Shown here in pieces: positions 26,209 through 31,935 of a DNA stretch of 37,697 nt (position 1 is the first letter of the stretch; each line of letters begins with the position of its first letter). Location: positions 1 to 37,697 of IMG/VR virus record IMGVR_UViG_3300025380_000072; one strand, given 5' to 3'. The DNA comes from a virus. The position numbers were made by a program, and so were the translations under genes. Below the pieces are notes generated by a model, which did not search any database, was not told where the DNA came from, and worked only from the letters and a program-made list of their open reading frames with translations.

Positions 26209-26590
26209 TTTCCCCTCTCTCGTGCACTATTTGAGGCGCTACCCCGTCGTCGTATACTTTATGAAGTATAAGCTGGCAGACTTTATCTCCTTTGACAACA
26301 GCAAATCTTTTGTCACCGTGATTGAACGTAAATAGGGATAATTCGCCTTTAAAACCAGAATCAACAACACCTCCGTGCATCTGAACGCCGCGCCTCGCTA
26401 TTGAAGACCTTGTCTGGATATGAACCCAATACCCCTCAGGGATATCCAGCGAGATACCTAGTTTAATTTCAGCGCGCCCGCCTGGTGCTATCGCAATCTC
26501 CTCAGATGCATAGCAGTCAAGTCCTACGTCTCCTTTATAAGCTCTTGTTGGTTTCTTTGCGTCTTTATTAGTTAAATTTATTTTTAGCAT
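26180..26590 (-). CDS. dut: dUTP diphosphatase
   Basis: 136 residues, complete trimeric dUTPase. All five motifs are present: GDVGLDCYA (I), TRSSIARRG (II), GGVVDSGFKGEL (III), GDKVCQLIL (IV) and RGENGYGSS (V). It removes dUTP and supplies dUMP for dTMP synthesis, keeping uracil out of the new DNA. It overlaps the DpdA-like gene by 23 bases and the polymerase by 29 bases, so the three are one translational unit. AAGGGAG lies before the start. Confidence 0.96.
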   Translation of the reverse strand: MLKINLTNKDAKKPTRAYKGDVGLDCYASEEIAIAPGGRAEIKLGISLDIPEGYWVHIQTRSSIARRGVQMHGGVVDSGFKGELSLFTFNHGDKRFAVVKGDKVCQLILHKVYDDGVAPQIVHERGENGYGSSNHV

Positions 26591-27350
26591 GATTTTGTAA
26601 CTCCCTTATATTATGGGCTGCCAGAGATTGTACGTTGTCTAGAGAAGAAGTAAAATATTCATCTCCGAAATCAGGCTTTTCACCAATACCTGACCCCAGT
26701 ATTAAATCGTGTACCAGCGTCATTTTAAAAGGTAGGCTAGTATCACAGCTCCGGATAGTATCGTTGTGGTATGACAATTCTAAAGGTTGATATAATCCCA
26801 GCAAGTGCACCGGCTTAGTAATATAAACTGTCTTCGTAAACCAGAGGCGACTTAAAGCGTTACGCTGTGTTTTGTTTATTGCTTCAGGAACATTAAAATC
26901 ACTGAAGAAGTCTAATCCTGCAAACGGTAAGCTTATTACCTCAATGCGTCCATCTGCCTCAAAAGTATCTAATGTACATAGGGCGTCTTCTAGTGTAGCT
27001 CCTTGAACTACTGCGTTAACTGCTATGTTATGCTCTGCTAGTTCGTCGTAGTGTTCGTCTAAAAATTGTTCAGTAGCGCCTCTCGTTTTTTGACCATCGT
27101 GCAGATAATCTGGAGCTATAACCTCATGTGGCTTTAGAGCTAGTGCCCATTGCATTTGCTCTTTTCCGGTGAGCAACTTTCCTTCAGCTGCGCCATTATC
27201 CATCATAACATACTTACCTTCTCTTGCTTTTTGAACAAAGAACTCAAAATAAGCTGGGTCCTCGAGAAAAGGAGCCAGGCACATGAATAAATCACTTTCG
27301 TCTTGATACGTTTTTAAATACTTATGTGGCGGTATTAGTGCTAATTGCAT
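26568..27350 (-). CDS. dpdA: DpdA-like DNA transglycosylase (7-deazaguanine insertion)
   Basis: 260 residues with a tRNA-guanine transglycosylase-like barrel. Seen: MMDNGAAE (D51), EVIAPDYLHDG (D81), AVVQGATLED (VVQG as in TGT 'QG'), ISLPFAGLD, HLLGL (as the TGT 'MGVG') and SCDTSLPF (D203, at the nucleophile position). This is the pattern of phage DpdA proteins, which swap guanine in DNA for preQ0 or a relative. The enzyme is shorter than bacterial TGT and lacks the zinc site. FolE, QueD, QueE and QueC next door supply its base. A tRNA substrate cannot be excluded by eye. Confidence 0.82.
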   Translation of the reverse strand: MQLALIPPHKYLKTYQDESDLFMCLAPFLEDPAYFEFFVQKAREGKYVMMDNGAAEGKLLTGKEQMQWALALKPHEVIAPDYLHDGQKTRGATEQFLDEHYDELAEHNIAVNAVVQGATLEDALCTLDTFEADGRIEVISLPFAGLDFFSDFNVPEAINKTQRNALSRLWFTKTVYITKPVHLLGLYQPLELSYHNDTIRSCDTSLPFKMTLVHDLILGSGIGEKPDFGDEYFTSSLDNVQSLAAHNIRELQNHAKNKFN

Positions 27351-27642
27351 TTCTTATCCTCGCTTTCTCTCTTTGAATATACCATTCTGCTTTGTCTAAG
27401 TCTTCTAACTCATCGTACTTAGAGCCTGCTCTCGTTGTATATTTAACTACGTTACCTCTGTTGAAATTTAACTTTTTTGCTTCGATAAAATCAATCGTTT
27501 CTACGCCTCCTTTACGATAGTGCGATGGATTTATTGCTTCTTTGAAACCGTCATCCACTTTCGTATGGTCATTTGGCCAACGGCTTGTTCTGTACGGCGG
27601 TATTACTGATTTAGGCTTCTCATGGTCACCTAACCAACTCAT
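27322..27642 (-). CDS. DUF3310 protein
   Basis: 106 residues. The DUF3310 core is clear: NPSHYRKGGVETIDFIEA, then FNRGNVVKYTTRAG and EDLDKAEWYIQREK. This domain is widespread in phages next to nucleotide metabolism genes; its function is not established. Overlaps both neighbours (ATGA with the gene before, 29 bases with the DpdA-like gene). Confidence 0.9.
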   Translation of the reverse strand: MSWLGDHEKPKSVIPPYRTSRWPNDHTKVDDGFKEAINPSHYRKGGVETIDFIEAKKLNFNRGNVVKYTTRAGSKYDELEDLDKAEWYIQREKARIRNAISTNTAT

Positions 27643-28568
27643 TCTGAATCACCTCCGTTGAAAAGCTCGTAAGTAACATCTTCTTGGAGTTCTTCTAAAG
27701 TATATTCTGTAAGTAAATACGATATGATAGCTTCTTTCCGAGTGATTTCACCAGTACCAAAGCGTTTCAACTGTTCTTTGTTATAGTTGATAGTTTTAAA
27801 ACCAGGGGTTCTTAATCCGGGATGTCCCAACAGCACTACTTTTGAACGATGCTTCACAGGTATCCTATTTATATTTATCAAACCTAGATACTTTTTACCT
27901 AGACAGAGTACTACTAGGGAGGCTTGGATGTGCTCCAGTAGCATTGTGAAATTTTCTGTAACTTTGAGAGCTTCATCTACTTGTCTGTAATCTCCCGGTT
28001 TCAACATTTTGAAAGTATTGTCATAGGGCTTAATGCGAGTTTCACCGTGCACCAGTCCATATCCGGCTGATAGTATATAGTGGGAGATGCTCGGGGTTTT
28101 ACCGAGGCGCTGTTCTAGAAGTTCTTTTATAAGGAGAGCTCCCTTCCCCAAGTACATATCCTGTGCAGGACATTCTTTTTTTTCTTTAGAAGCGCTGCAC
28201 TGTGTAATTAATAATATAGTGGGATTGCTTGTATCTACTTTCAGTTCTTTGGGGGGATTTACGTTGTTTAAGAACCGCGCTACTCGTTCTACAGAAGTAC
28301 CTTCTGTCAAAGCTCCAAAATAGTCGCCGGAATACTCTTCTTTATTGTACGCAAACAACTTCCCGTCTCGTTGATAGAAAAAGTCACCACTTACTCCAAC
28401 AAAAGGGCGCCCTGAGTTATTAACAACTAATTTGGGTAATAATAATTTCAAATAATTCGGTTTATAAGTACCTCCGCTTTTTTCCGTTACGTATCGGACT
28501 ATGTCCTTCGAGAGCCAGGGCTCTGCAATGTCCGCTGTGTATTGTAATATGTAATCTTTTGCCTTCAT
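27639..28568 (-). CDS. CSxSK-motif (DUF6884-like) protein
   Basis: 309 residues. Residues 1-85 look like a winged helix with a strand-rich extension. The second half has ITQCSASKEKKECPAQDMYL (C124, K128), YILSAGYGLVHGETRI and PYDNTF, the CSxSK, 'LSA.YGLV' and 'PYD.T' signature of DUF6884-type proteins, distantly like the YaaA family to which the dADG enzyme DpdC belongs. Lying between DpdA-like and FolE genes, it is a candidate for finishing the modified base, by position only. AGGAGG before ATG. The N-terminal domain may bind DNA. Confidence 0.6.
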   Translation of the reverse strand: MKAKDYILQYTADIAEPWLSKDIVRYVTEKSGGTYKPNYLKLLLPKLVVNNSGRPFVGVSGDFFYQRDGKLFAYNKEEYSGDYFGALTEGTSVERVARFLNNVNPPKELKVDTSNPTILLITQCSASKEKKECPAQDMYLGKGALLIKELLEQRLGKTPSISHYILSAGYGLVHGETRIKPYDNTFKMLKPGDYRQVDEALKVTENFTMLLEHIQASLVVLCLGKKYLGLININRIPVKHRSKVVLLGHPGLRTPGFKTINYNKEQLKRFGTGEITRKEAIISYLLTEYTLEELQEDVTYELFNGGDSE

Positions 28569-28648: not shown

Positions 28649-29206
28649 TCATTTTGCTATCGCCGCCATAAATTCCATACGAGCGTTATTATCTTTTTCT
28701 AGAAACACACCACGCATAGCTGACGTAACTGTTGTAGCTCCAGGTGCTCTCACACCTCTAATTGTCATACAAGTATGTTCTGCTTCCATATAAACTGCCA
28801 CACCAACTGGGGCTAATAATTTCTGCAACTCATCAACCACCTGCATAGTTAAACGTTCTTGAATCTGAAGCCGTTTGGCGAATACTCTAGCAATCCTTAC
28901 GAGCTTACTTATTCCTATAACTTTACCATTCGGAATATATCCGATATGCATAACTCCTTGGAATAGGGCTATGTGGTGTTCGCAGAAGCTGTAGATAGGT
29001 ATATTTTTTACGATTACCATATCAGTGCTGTCGCTCTCAAACATACGAACATGTTGTTCTGTATCTTCATCGTATCCGGTTAATACTGCTTCATACATGC
29101 GGGCTACTCGGTCAGGGGTGGCGAGTAGCCCGTCTCTGGTAATGTCTTCGCCAAGACCTTCTAGCAATAATGTTATTGCGTTTTTAACTTTCTCTTTATT
29201 GAACAT
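28649..29206 (-). CDS. folE: GTP cyclohydrolase I
   Basis: 185 residues, first enzyme of 7-deazaguanine (and folate) synthesis: GTP to 7,8-dihydroneopterin triphosphate. Zinc ligands C75 and H78 (SFCEHH) and C146 (EHTCMTIRG) are present. ISKLVRIARVFAKRLQIQE and TVTSAMRG are the expected active-site segments. Normal length. The 80-base gap after its stop separates it from the DUF6884-like gene. GAGAT lies before the ATG. Confidence 0.95.
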   Translation of the reverse strand: MFNKEKVKNAITLLLEGLGEDITRDGLLATPDRVARMYEAVLTGYDEDTEQHVRMFESDSTDMVIVKNIPIYSFCEHHIALFQGVMHIGYIPNGKVIGISKLVRIARVFAKRLQIQERLTMQVVDELQKLLAPVGVAVYMEAEHTCMTIRGVRAPGATTVTSAMRGVFLEKDNNARMEFMAAIAK

Positions 29207-29371: not shown

Positions 29372-30040
29372 CTACAGTCCCTTGTACACAACAGGGTCTA
29401 TTAGCCCTGCTTTTTTGAATCCTTCTAATCGCTCCGTACAAGAACCGCACTTACCACACGCCTCAGGTCCTGCGTTATAACAAGTGTGAGTAAGGCTATA
29501 ATCTACACCGAGGTGTGTACCTATCATTACTATGTCGCCCTTATCTATGGCCCAGTAAGGCGCCTCTAGTCGGAGTAGACTCCAATCACAAAGTAGAAAT
29601 GCTACTTTCATCGCATCAATAAACTCTGCTCTACAGTCTGGATAAATAGCATGGTCTCCAGCATGAGCCCCGTAATATAATTTAGTCGCCTTATTGCTTA
29701 TTGCATAAGCTCCTGCCAAACTTAACATAATCATATTCCTGTTAGCAACCACTGTCTCTTTCATATTATCTGCTTTATAGTGCCCTGTCGGTACTTCCCA
29801 ATCATCTCTTGTTAGAGCTGAGGGCGCAATATCATTCAGTATTGATAAGTCTAATATTTTATGAGATACTCCCAACTTCTTACAAGTTGCGACTGCACAT
29901 TCTAATTCTCTTCTGTGCTTCTGATTATAGTCAAACGATAATGCGAATACTTTATATCCTCTATCTATAATATCGTATAACAGGGTCGTCGAATCCATAC
30001 CTCCACTAATTATTACTACTGCTGTCTTTTCATCATCCAT
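29372..30040 (-). CDS. queC: 7-cyano-7-deazaguanine synthase
   Basis: 222 residues. ATP-pyrophosphatase loop SGGMDST (12-18), DYNQKH, VANRNMIMLS and the C-terminal zinc site with C187, C195, C198 and C201 (CYNAGPEACGKCGSC). It makes preQ0 from 7-carboxy-7-deazaguanine, ATP and ammonia. No glutamine amidotransferase extension of the Gat-QueC kind is present, so this enzyme alone makes preQ0 and not the formamidino form. Overlaps the Zn-ribbon gene by 8 bases. Confidence 0.95.
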   Translation of the reverse strand: MDDEKTAVVIISGGMDSTTLLYDIIDRGYKVFALSFDYNQKHRRELECAVATCKKLGVSHKILDLSILNDIAPSALTRDDWEVPTGHYKADNMKETVVANRNMIMLSLAGAYAISNKATKLYYGAHAGDHAIYPDCRAEFIDAMKVAFLLCDWSLLRLEAPYWAIDKGDIVMIGTHLGVDYSLTHTCYNAGPEACGKCGSCTERLEGFKKAGLIDPVVYKGL

Positions 30041-30521
30041 GCTTTTTCTCCTTTCTTTTTAAGTTGTAACGTTGTGTGCGCACTGTGTTCATACTAGGAG
30101 ATTGCGCAGATAACTCCTTTAAAATTTCTTCGTCAGTCTTCCCTTTATTTATCAAATCTCTTATCTGCTCACAAATTCCTTTTCCCTTTTGTGCTGTCTT
30201 TTTCAAAATGAGCCTTTCATATTCTGAGATGGTAGCTTTAATAGTACTGTCTTTAACACTAAGTACTGTTGCTTGTATCTCTTCAAAGGTTTTACCTTGT
30301 TTATATAATCTGAGTATCTCCCCCTGAGAACCACCTTCGCAGTCCGAAGTTGATATTAGTTCTAGTCTGTCTTTTTTACGTTTCAACGATTCCTCTTTTG
30401 TCTTTTCTAATTTATCTCGAAAGACTTGGTCCATGTCTGATGTGTCACCACATGTAAGACAAGGTGTTACCTTTATAAAATCACTATCTCTATGTCTACC
30501 ACACTTTTTACATTTTACCAT
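30033..30521 (-). CDS. Zn-ribbon protein with two helix-turn-helix-like repeats
   Basis: 162 residues from ATG 30521 (GGAGG six bases before). The N-terminus has CKKC and CLTC pairs (zinc ribbon). Two similar helical units follow: GEILRLYKQGKTFEEIQATV and CEQIRDLINKGKTDEEILKEL, each with 'I..L...GKT.EEI', ending with a further helix. This looks like a DNA-binding repeat protein, perhaps a regulator of the preQ0 operon, since a promoter with the motif AAGTGTTATATAAT lies just upstream. Target unknown. Confidence 0.6.
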   Translation of the reverse strand: MVKCKKCGRHRDSDFIKVTPCLTCGDTSDMDQVFRDKLEKTKEESLKRKKDRLELISTSDCEGGSQGEILRLYKQGKTFEEIQATVLSVKDSTIKATISEYERLILKKTAQKGKGICEQIRDLINKGKTDEEILKELSAQSPSMNTVRTQRYNLKRKEKKHG

Positions 30522-30548
30522 TTCATACCTCCCGAATGTTATATTAAT

Positions 30549-30577
30549 ATTATATAACACTTATCTAAGAAAGTCAC
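30549..30577 (-). promoter_or_regulatory. Promoter for Zn-ribbon/queC/folE operon
   Basis: Minus-strand GTGACT (30577-30572), 17 bases, TATAAT (30554-30549). The last 14 bases, AAGTGTTATATAAT, are identical to those of the promoter at 35798-35826. It sits in the short gap before the 30521 start. Confidence 0.6.
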
Positions 30578-30584
30578 CCGTTAT

Positions 30585-31043
30585 TTAAAGAACGCCTGAA
30601 ATCATACCTGGATAAATTCCTTCACTTTCACCAATAGCGCCCTCGCTGCGTACGGTACTGGTGCCTGCTTCTTCGTACGGATACACAACCCATGCTTCTG
30701 TTGCATAAATATATAAATCAGGTTTAGGTATCCCCCAAGGTTTGCAAATCAAAGTAGCTTTAAAATTATTTGGATAAGCGGATAATTGTGCTCCGGTATC
30801 AACTAAATCATCTACTATCAATGTCTCCGGCTCGATGTTCTCTTTCGAAGTAACAAAAGGTATTCCCAAGAAATGAGACAACGCTACTGCTATTATAGAG
30901 CCTCCGCGCGGCAGTCCATATACCCCACTAAAAGTGCGTCCATGCTTGAGTAACTCAACCCCCAATAATCTAATGAGAGCGCCGTAAGTTTCCCAATCTA
31001 TGAAATGTTTATCATCTTGTGCAGTTGTACCGATAGTTTCCAC
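30585..31043 (-). CDS. Phosphoribosyltransferase-like protein
   Basis: 152 residues. A PRPP-binding loop TLIVDDLVDTGAQ (74-86) and GVYGLPRGGSIIAVALSH show a type I phosphoribosyltransferase. The GTG start lies inside queE (46-base overlap). The last 40 residues are acidic and glycine-rich with no known family. It could salvage a purine for the pathway, or make a nucleotide of the deazaguanine base; both are inference. It is the only such gene in the block. Confidence 0.75.
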   Translation of the reverse strand: METIGTTAQDDKHFIDWETYGALIRLLGVELLKHGRTFSGVYGLPRGGSIIAVALSHFLGIPFVTSKENIEPETLIVDDLVDTGAQLSAYPNNFKATLICKPWGIPKPDLYIYATEAWVVYPYEEAGTSTVRSEGAIGESEGIYPGMISGVL

Positions 31044-31603
31044 ATTCCTTCTCTTTCTTCAATAATCTGAATTACTTCTTCTAAGTTATCTTTTCCAAAA
31101 CAAGGTTGTAAATAAAGGGCACGTACATGGTGTTCTGCTGCCCACAATTCATATAAATCTAATCTCTCCTTAGTAACCTTCGGCCCACTGTCCCATACTA
31201 CTTTTAACTCATCTACCTCGCTAATTTTTGGCATTTCTCCGTTCTTTGGCGAACACGTAATCCAATCAATCAGATTCGCTTGATTCTTAAATGAATTCAA
31301 AGTACCATTTGTTTCGACATAGCAATTTAACTCATACATTTGGATAAATGTATATATTTCAGCGTACTGTAACATAGGCTCTCCACCTGTAAATACTATA
31401 GGTACGTGTCTGTATGCTGGGAACTTATCGCTCAAGTAGTTATTAAGAGTAACCGGATTCAAATCAAAGTATACAGTGTCGTGGTATTTAGTATCACACC
31501 ACTCGCAACTTAAATTACATCCACTCAATCTAATGAATATAACAGGAGTTCCTACGTGAGTTCCTTCACCTTGAATTGAATAAAATATTTCATTTATCTT
31601 CAT
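30998..31603 (-). CDS. queE: 7-carboxy-7-deazaguanine synthase
   Basis: 201 residues. SIQGEGTHVGTPVIFIRLSG is a QueE start, followed by CNLSCEWCD (C29, C33, C36, the radical SAM cluster), FTGGEP and YVETNGT. It converts carboxytetrahydropterin to 7-carboxy-7-deazaguanine. Length is usual for the family. It overlaps queD in ATGA, so both are translated together. Confidence 0.95.
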   Translation of the reverse strand: MKINEIFYSIQGEGTHVGTPVIFIRLSGCNLSCEWCDTKYHDTVYFDLNPVTLNNYLSDKFPAYRHVPIVFTGGEPMLQYAEIYTFIQMYELNCYVETNGTLNSFKNQANLIDWITCSPKNGEMPKISEVDELKVVWDSGPKVTKERLDLYELWAAEHHVRALYLQPCFGKDNLEEVIQIIEEREGMWKLSVQLHKMINIS

Positions 31604-31935
31604 GCGTCATCCCTCACGTAAGTAGCAACGTTATTCTTAGTTTCTTCTACATCTACTTTGTAACAAGACGGGACTCTAGCGCAAATCCATTCTGCTAATA
31701 GCTCTGCAGTAGGATTAAAAGTAACATGGTCGTTAATGTGTTCGTGGTCTAGGGCGAAAACTACTTTTTTAATTTTAGAGAAATCAACAATCATGCCGTT
31801 TTCATCTAATTTATCGCTTTTACAATAAACTGTAACCATCCAATTATGGCCGTGTACTCTTGAGCAAGGGCTATCATAATTTAGTTTCAGCTTATGTGAG
31901 CCGCTTATTTCCATTGTCTTTTGCAAATAAAACAT
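31600..31935 (-). CDS. queD: 6-carboxytetrahydropterin synthase
   Basis: 111 residues. SGSHKL (H14), CSRVHGHNW (C24, H28, H30), LDHEHIND and NPTAELLAEWI are the QueD pattern; the catalytic cysteine, zinc histidines and the aspartate-histidine pair are present. It turns dihydroneopterin triphosphate into carboxytetrahydropterin. AAGGAGA precedes the ATG. Confidence 0.95.
   Translation of the reverse strand: MFYLQKTMEISGSHKLKLNYDSPCSRVHGHNWMVTVYCKSDKLDENGMIVDFSKIKKVVFALDHEHINDHVTFNPTAELLAEWICARVPSCYKVDVEETKNNVATYVRDDA

Follow-up and report, generated by a model that had tools for sequence, protein, structure and literature searches.

The closest described relatives of the protein analyzed here are the DpdC enzymes of bacterial dpd islands. 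DpdC has been reported to hydrolyze dPreQ0 to dADG (PMC12839542). According to a genome-mining study that gives DUF6884 as the DpdC domain, Salmonella Montevideo needs DpdC for dADG (PMC11888242). The Pfam group ascribes to DUF6884 a YaaA-like fold, CxxxK and LSAxxG motifs, and a putative active site; one family member, from B. subtilis, has been described as a DNA-lesion binder (PMC11701544). For phages, a 2019 survey ascribed dADG formation to an unidentified protein (PMC6884629), and a 2021 paper on phage MED16 stated that most of the final steps were still awaiting elucidation (PMC8306585).

A DUF6884 gene within a preQ0 and DpdA cassette

The window, which is the whole stretch of DNA that we analyzed, corresponds to a virus record 37,697 bases in length. 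An open reading frame of 309 aa occupies positions 28568–27639 on its minus strand, where the plus strand is crowded with stop codons. A reading of this DNA from sequence only had placed a gene at 27639–28568 between a DUF3310/DpdA pair and folE, had noted a CSxSK, LSAxYGLV, PYDxT core, and had singled out C124. The gene is real and the placement correct, the core is present as CSASK, LSAGYGLV, and PYDNT, and C124 proved invariant in 75 diverse relatives. The features of the locus, in reading direction, are as follows.

31600–31935, minus strand: QueD, 6-carboxytetrahydropterin synthase (Pfam PTPS, 1.4e-26; TIGR03367, 2.1e-23)
30998–31603, minus strand: QueE-like radical SAM protein, 7-carboxy-7-deazaguanine synthase (TIGR04508, 7.4e-30, below its cut-off; phrog_2076, 4.2e-36)
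30585–31043, minus strand: phosphoribosyltransferase-like protein, a recurrent cassette passenger (phrog_8995, 6.9e-7)
29372–30040, minus strand: QueC, 7-cyano-7-deazaguanine synthase without a Gat domain, 222 aa (Pfam, 1.3e-66; TIGR00364, above cut-off)
28649–29206, minus strand: FolE, GTP cyclohydrolase I (Pfam, 3.6e-68)
27639–28568, minus strand: DUF6884/DpdC-family protein, 309 aa, with an N-terminal extension (aa 1–112), a core (aa about 115–245), and a C-terminal tail (aa 246–309) (Pfam DUF6884; PADLOC DpdC; AF2 model matching YaaA; trees with DpdC)
28185–28199, minus strand: CSASK motif (C124-x3-K128), proposed active-site Cys and Lys, both invariant in 75 relatives
28050–28073, minus strand: LSAGYGLV motif (aa 166–173)
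28014–28028, minus strand: PYDNT motif (aa 181–185)
27322–27642, minus strand: DUF3310 protein, 106 aa, overlapping both neighbors (Pfam DUF3310, 3.1e-17)
26568–27350, minus strand: DpdA-type putative DNA-guanine transglycosylase, 260 aa, phrog_20335 (AF2 model matching the TGT barrel)

The full cassette runs QueD, QueE, phosphoribosyltransferase-like protein, a 175-aa protein, QueC, FolE, DUF6884, DUF3310, DpdA, dUTPase, and PolA. From the DUF6884 gene through PolA, successive genes all overlap by 4 to 29 nt each (4 nt for DUF6884/DUF3310, 29 nt for DUF3310/DpdA), so these genes are probably co-translated. We found no QueF in the window using the QueF of phage immuto as query, and QueC lacks a fused amidotransferase domain; the pathway encoded here should therefore stop at preQ0.

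Two further genes of the cassette are described here as side observations. The 175-aa protein (30033–30560), which lies between QueC and the phosphoribosyltransferase, has a zinc-ribbon-like start and no confident family, and none of 80 DpdA loci contained a homolog. Homologs of the phosphoribosyltransferase (30585–31043 in the window) recur in 24 DpdA loci (L004:5840-6235, L111, and L136 among them); conjecturally, this protein might salvage the guanine released by DpdA.

The DpdA-like protein gave no match in Pfam. Its homologs include the annotated DNA-guanine transglycosylase of Flavobacterium phage immuto and a protein encoded by Cellulophaga phage phiST. Its AlphaFold model, based on 52 aligned sequences (pLDDT 87), aligned with tRNA-guanine transglycosylase over 231 residues (VIA-align, Z 17.9), and Foldseek matched the model to TGTs including the solved DpdA 7ui4 (E 2e-6). 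D203 is invariant and falls inside the stretch that aligns with the segment carrying the nucleophilic Asp of TGTs (DCVMPTR). Judged by its modeled fold, this neighbor is a transglycosylase, and its family points to DNA as the substrate.

Relation to DpdC, YaaA, and ArcS

Residues C124, K128, Y139, L166, S167, Y170, G171, L172, Y182, and Y227 were invariant in the 75 diverse relatives, which argues that the conserved core of the window protein is not due to chance. Pfam DUF6884 (PF21818) matched aa 123–231 with an E-value of 2.3e-12 (47.7 bits against a curated cut-off of 30), and both hallmarks of the family given in PMC11701544, CxxxK and LSAxxG, are present (C124-x3-K128 and LSAGYG). The sequence-only reading had described the N-terminus as winged-helix-like. 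The first 112 residues matched no family and, when searched alone against the other open reading frames, recovered only themselves; in the AlphaFold model, aa 3–74 form a helix-helix-helix-strands arrangement at a pLDDT of only about 33–63. As a single direct query, the window protein matched no phage record (tblastn) and no viral contig.

The likeness to DpdC that had been noted in the sequence-only reading holds. PADLOC DpdC profiles matched the window protein over part of their length (PDLC02815, 1e-8; PDLC02818, 3.8e-7), and the DpdC and DUF6884 profiles matched each other at 99.5% (E 1.9e-22, 114 columns). The window protein scored 69.6 bits against our own DpdC profile versus 54.9 bits against a profile of compact phage DUF6884 proteins. 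In a dpd island of Enterobacter, the gene lying upstream of dpdA encodes DpdC (PADLOC, 6e-142) with a weak DUF6884 match, and the domain is also found in Sinorhizobium DpdC. Once their starts are corrected, DpdC proteins carry the CxxxK motif as TTCTNGK or TTCTNRK, with TTCTNGK appearing in the Enterobacter protein when its start is extended upstream. In the DpdA proteins of Paenibacillus and Picosynechococcus, DUF6884 is fused ahead of the transglycosylase. Using tblastn, we found the same kind of DpdC-DpdA fusion in Nostoc, Allocoleopsis, and Deinococcus; Halobaculum has the fusion in reversed order, and Nitrospira encodes a DUF6884-DpdA fusion. With BLAST, the window protein matched best to the DpdC portions of fusions of this kind (Nostoc, 1e-12; Halobaculum, 5e-12; Picosynechococcus, 4e-11).

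Trees of 136 and 42 sequences grouped the window protein with DpdC (support 96/78 and 83/99), with long branches and a node that was not starred, and the alternative topology that sets DpdC apart from the window protein was not rejected (AU p 0.44); the placement with DpdC is thus probable, with moderate support. The window protein shares with the DpdC of bacterial dpd islands (PDLC02815/02818) its domain, the CxxxK, SA-x-GL, and PY motifs, DpdA and preQ0 genes as partners, and its position in the tree. It differs in being encoded by a phage genome, in having an N-terminal extension of ~112 aa, in lacking the insertion that canonical DpdC has between its CxxxK and AxDxY motifs, and in being only about 25–32% identical to any DpdC. 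Its similarity to DpdC stops near aa 243, leaving the C-terminal region of full-length DpdC unmatched, and, unlike in bacterial dpd islands, we saw no DpdB or restriction genes nearby. Because the DpdC insertion is missing and the reaction is only predicted, we class the protein as a DpdC-like member of DUF6884 and not as a proven DpdC.

Two other groups invite comparison. The DpdC-DpdA fusions of Paenibacillus, cyanobacteria, Deinococcus, and Halobaculum, which supply the best BLAST partners, likewise pair the domain with a transglycosylase, but the window has two genes and its DpdA is of a distinct short phage type. The compact phage DUF6884 proteins encoded beside a phrog_887 DpdA, such as that of Fusobacterium phage phiFN37, share the Pfam domain and the logic of the cassette, but they are about 140 aa long without the extension and are paired with another DpdA subfamily.

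The AlphaFold model of the DUF6884 protein is good in the core and poor at the N-terminus. VIA-align ranked YaaA (5caj) first, with a Z of 9.1 over aa 116–291, and 2q07 second, with a Z of 7.3; Foldseek gave no match at an E-value of 0.001. YaaA (DUF328) resembles the window protein in fold and in the LSxxYG...PY segment, but it has no link to deazaguanines, its sequence match is weak (E 0.036), and the YaaA family PF03883 gave no match to the window protein at E-values up to 1. The second structure, 2q07, is an ArcS homologue, as archaeal ArcS matches it at 5.7e-45. The ArcS core (DUF5591) has its PCxxxK, LTSPxG, and YD motifs in the same order as the DUF6884 protein, and ArcS acts on the preQ0 nitrile; it differs in that its substrate is tRNA and in that it transfers lysine to preQ0 (PMC11298593). 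Homology between ArcS and DUF6884 was not significant at the sequence level (hhalign 5–14% between the DUF5591 and DUF6884 profiles), and Pfam DUF5591 did not match the window protein. The resemblance is therefore one of fold and motifs rather than demonstrated homology, and, since a Z below 8 can reflect a common arrangement, we treat 2q07 as a lead only.

Linkage of DUF6884 with dpdA in viral genomes

We collected viral DUF6884 loci by two motif-based scans, which favored the LSA[KF]YGL form and possibly biased the counts, clustered them at 70% identity, and used as controls 50 viral contigs chosen by an unrelated helicase motif. The phage transglycosylase family phrog_887 occurred in 29 of 49 viral DUF6884 records versus 0 of 50 controls (Fisher p 3e-12, at the level of records). 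At the level of clusters, dpdA was in the locus in 25/37 cases, on the same strand in 24 of them and within 60 bp in 12, and all but one of these 25 clusters (24) also carried preQ0 genes or homologs of preQ0 transporters. Neither QueF nor an immuto-type formyltransferase was detected in the 25. When we checked ten neighboring transglycosylases against PHROGs, nine were phrog_887 and one (L046) was of the window's DpdA type. In the sequenced isolate phiFN37, genes for a ParB-like protein, DpdA, DUF6884, and a queuosine-precursor transporter are consecutive. The remaining 12 of the 37 clusters, including a cyanophage-like group and prohead-protease-like fusions, had no dpdA in the stretch examined, so DUF6884 is not confined to the deazaguanine pathway; the domain also occurs fused to a GIY-YIG nuclease.

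Co-occurrence with dpdA, which the sequence-only reading had named as its check, was thus seen for the family as a whole, in the clusters above and in the fusions, but not for the window's own type of DpdA. A general pairing of that type with DUF6884 was rejected, as the domain was present in 1 of 80 contigs. Among contigs with the window's DpdA type, the window and L046 were the only ones to carry DUF6884, and both have QueC and lack QueF; the domain was present in 2/6 loci with QueC and without QueF versus 0/75 others (p 0.005, from small numbers, loci cut at 10 kb, and a post hoc grouping). QueF was found in 25 loci of this set, usually alongside a formyltransferase.

Several arrangements were seen in passing. 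The window's DpdA type often accompanies QueF plus a formyltransferase (about 25 loci; L034, L050, L071, L085, and others), which fits a formyl-preQ1 route, and many further loci with this DpdA have FolE, QueD, and QueE, with QueC not detected. L046 and L061 share a similar order of queC, queD, queE, folE, dpdA, and a UDG-like/polymerase gene, with DUF6884 beside the polymerase gene only in L046. Four loci (L117, L121, L145, and L154) combine a viral DpdA, DUF6884, QueC, and a preQ0-transporter homolog, with no FolE, QueD, or QueE in the stretch examined; QueC is kept here even though preQ0 may be imported. Four others (L006, L012, L021, and L025) have DUF6884 within long proteins whose other parts resemble phage head-maturation proteins, and no dpdA was detected there. 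Finally, loci from Aquificota, Thermococcaceae, and Gracilibacteria (L164, L168, L176, L178, and L183) have consecutive genes for DUF6884, a NurA-like nuclease, a HerA helicase, and a DpdA-type transglycosylase (families tested with Pfam for L164 and L178), and L172 has a related layout with a TGT-DUF6884 fusion. HerA systems with a TGT have been described, with no DpdC found in them (PMC12839542); given the resemblance of these islands, DUF6884 may be the missing DpdC.

We also checked 12 phage records, among which dADG has been measured in MED16, Salmonella phage 7-11, and CP220, and dPreQ0 in CAjan (PMC6884629, PMC8306585). None of the 12 carried DUF6884. For MED16, 7-11, CP220, nt-1, and HVTV-1, we rejected the idea that the domain accompanies known dADG, and dADG in MED16, 7-11, and CP220 thus arises by another route.

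The predicted reaction and its alternatives

We propose, as a reading that we hold to be fairly probable, that the window protein is a phage DpdC-type enzyme that turns inserted dPreQ0 into dADG, its predicted product. FolE, QueD, QueE, and QueC would make preQ0, DpdA would exchange guanine in phage DNA for preQ0, and the DUF6884 protein would hydrate the dPreQ0 nitrile while the base is in DNA, yielding the amide dADG. In nitrilases and QueF, attack of a Cys on a nitrile forms a thioimidate. By its conservation, C124 is the putative catalytic residue: its attack on the nitrile would produce a thioimidate that water would then convert to the amide, and K128, S167, Y182, and D183, also conserved, may assist. 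The N-terminal domain, for which the model is poor, may hold the DNA. A DpdC-family protein in a complete preQ0 and DpdA cassette makes action on inserted preQ0 the best reading, and the base-finishing role put forward in the sequence-only reading is well supported. The novelty it suggested for this step was not supported, since DpdC, the closest characterized relative, already has a reported dPreQ0 to dADG reaction. Most likely, the phage protein would carry out this DpdC reaction and no novel chemistry.

An unlikely alternative is a non-catalytic role, in which the protein would bind DNA, flip bases, and either recruit DpdA to the DNA or recognize bases that are modified or damaged; such a role has been proposed for YaaA and for YfjM of B. 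subtilis. YaaA is indeed the top structural match (Z 9.1), a description of DUF6884 reports a positively charged cleft and predicts a flipped base (PMC11701544), and the domain is also found without dpdA, including in GIY-YIG fusions. Against such a role, the complete or near-complete invariance of the CxxxK, SA, and YD residues suggests catalysis; a member of this family, DpdC, is reportedly needed for dADG (PMC11888242); and the commonest viral context of DUF6884 is preQ0 supply plus DpdA.

Catalysis could also take other forms, each of which we consider improbable. In an ArcS-like transfer, an amine rather than water would be added to the dPreQ0 nitrile, and the product would be an amidine-type adduct or a dG+ precursor. 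The rank of the ArcS homologue 2q07 as second structural match (Z 7.3), the same order of CxxxK, L(S/T)(A/S)xxG, and YD in ArcS, and the transfer of lysine to preQ0 by that enzyme (PMC11298593) are consistent with this; it is disfavored by the DUF6884 and ArcS profiles, which are not significantly joined (5–14% probability), by DpdC being the nearest characterized relative, and by the examined part of the cassette showing no radical-SAM protein but QueE. There is a similarly slim chance that a DpdC/ArcS-type pocket attaches an amine, an amino acid, or another non-water group to the nitrile, which would create an undescribed 7-deazaguanine DNA base. More doubtful still is action on free preQ0 or a nucleotide before insertion, such that DpdA would insert ADG and not preQ0. 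In its favor, ADG is an intermediate of QueC, and the neighboring genes are for soluble biosynthesis. DpdC, however, is described as acting on dPreQ0 (PMC12839542), and the fusions join the domain to a DNA transglycosylase, not to QueC.

The recurrent phage DpdA-DpdC cassette appears to be new, as we found no description of it in the literature searched, although this is uncertain with respect to several papers on DpdC and on later phage deazaguanines. Our analysis provides a concrete phage candidate family for dADG formation, the DpdC domain DUF6884, which is linked to dpdA and a source of preQ0 in most viral clusters. The analysis further points to a common fold and motif order for DpdC, YaaA, and the tRNA enzyme ArcS, which offers a lead on how the preQ0 nitrile is attacked. 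The last step of phage DNA modification thereby becomes testable, with phiFN37 as a sequenced isolate that carries DUF6884.
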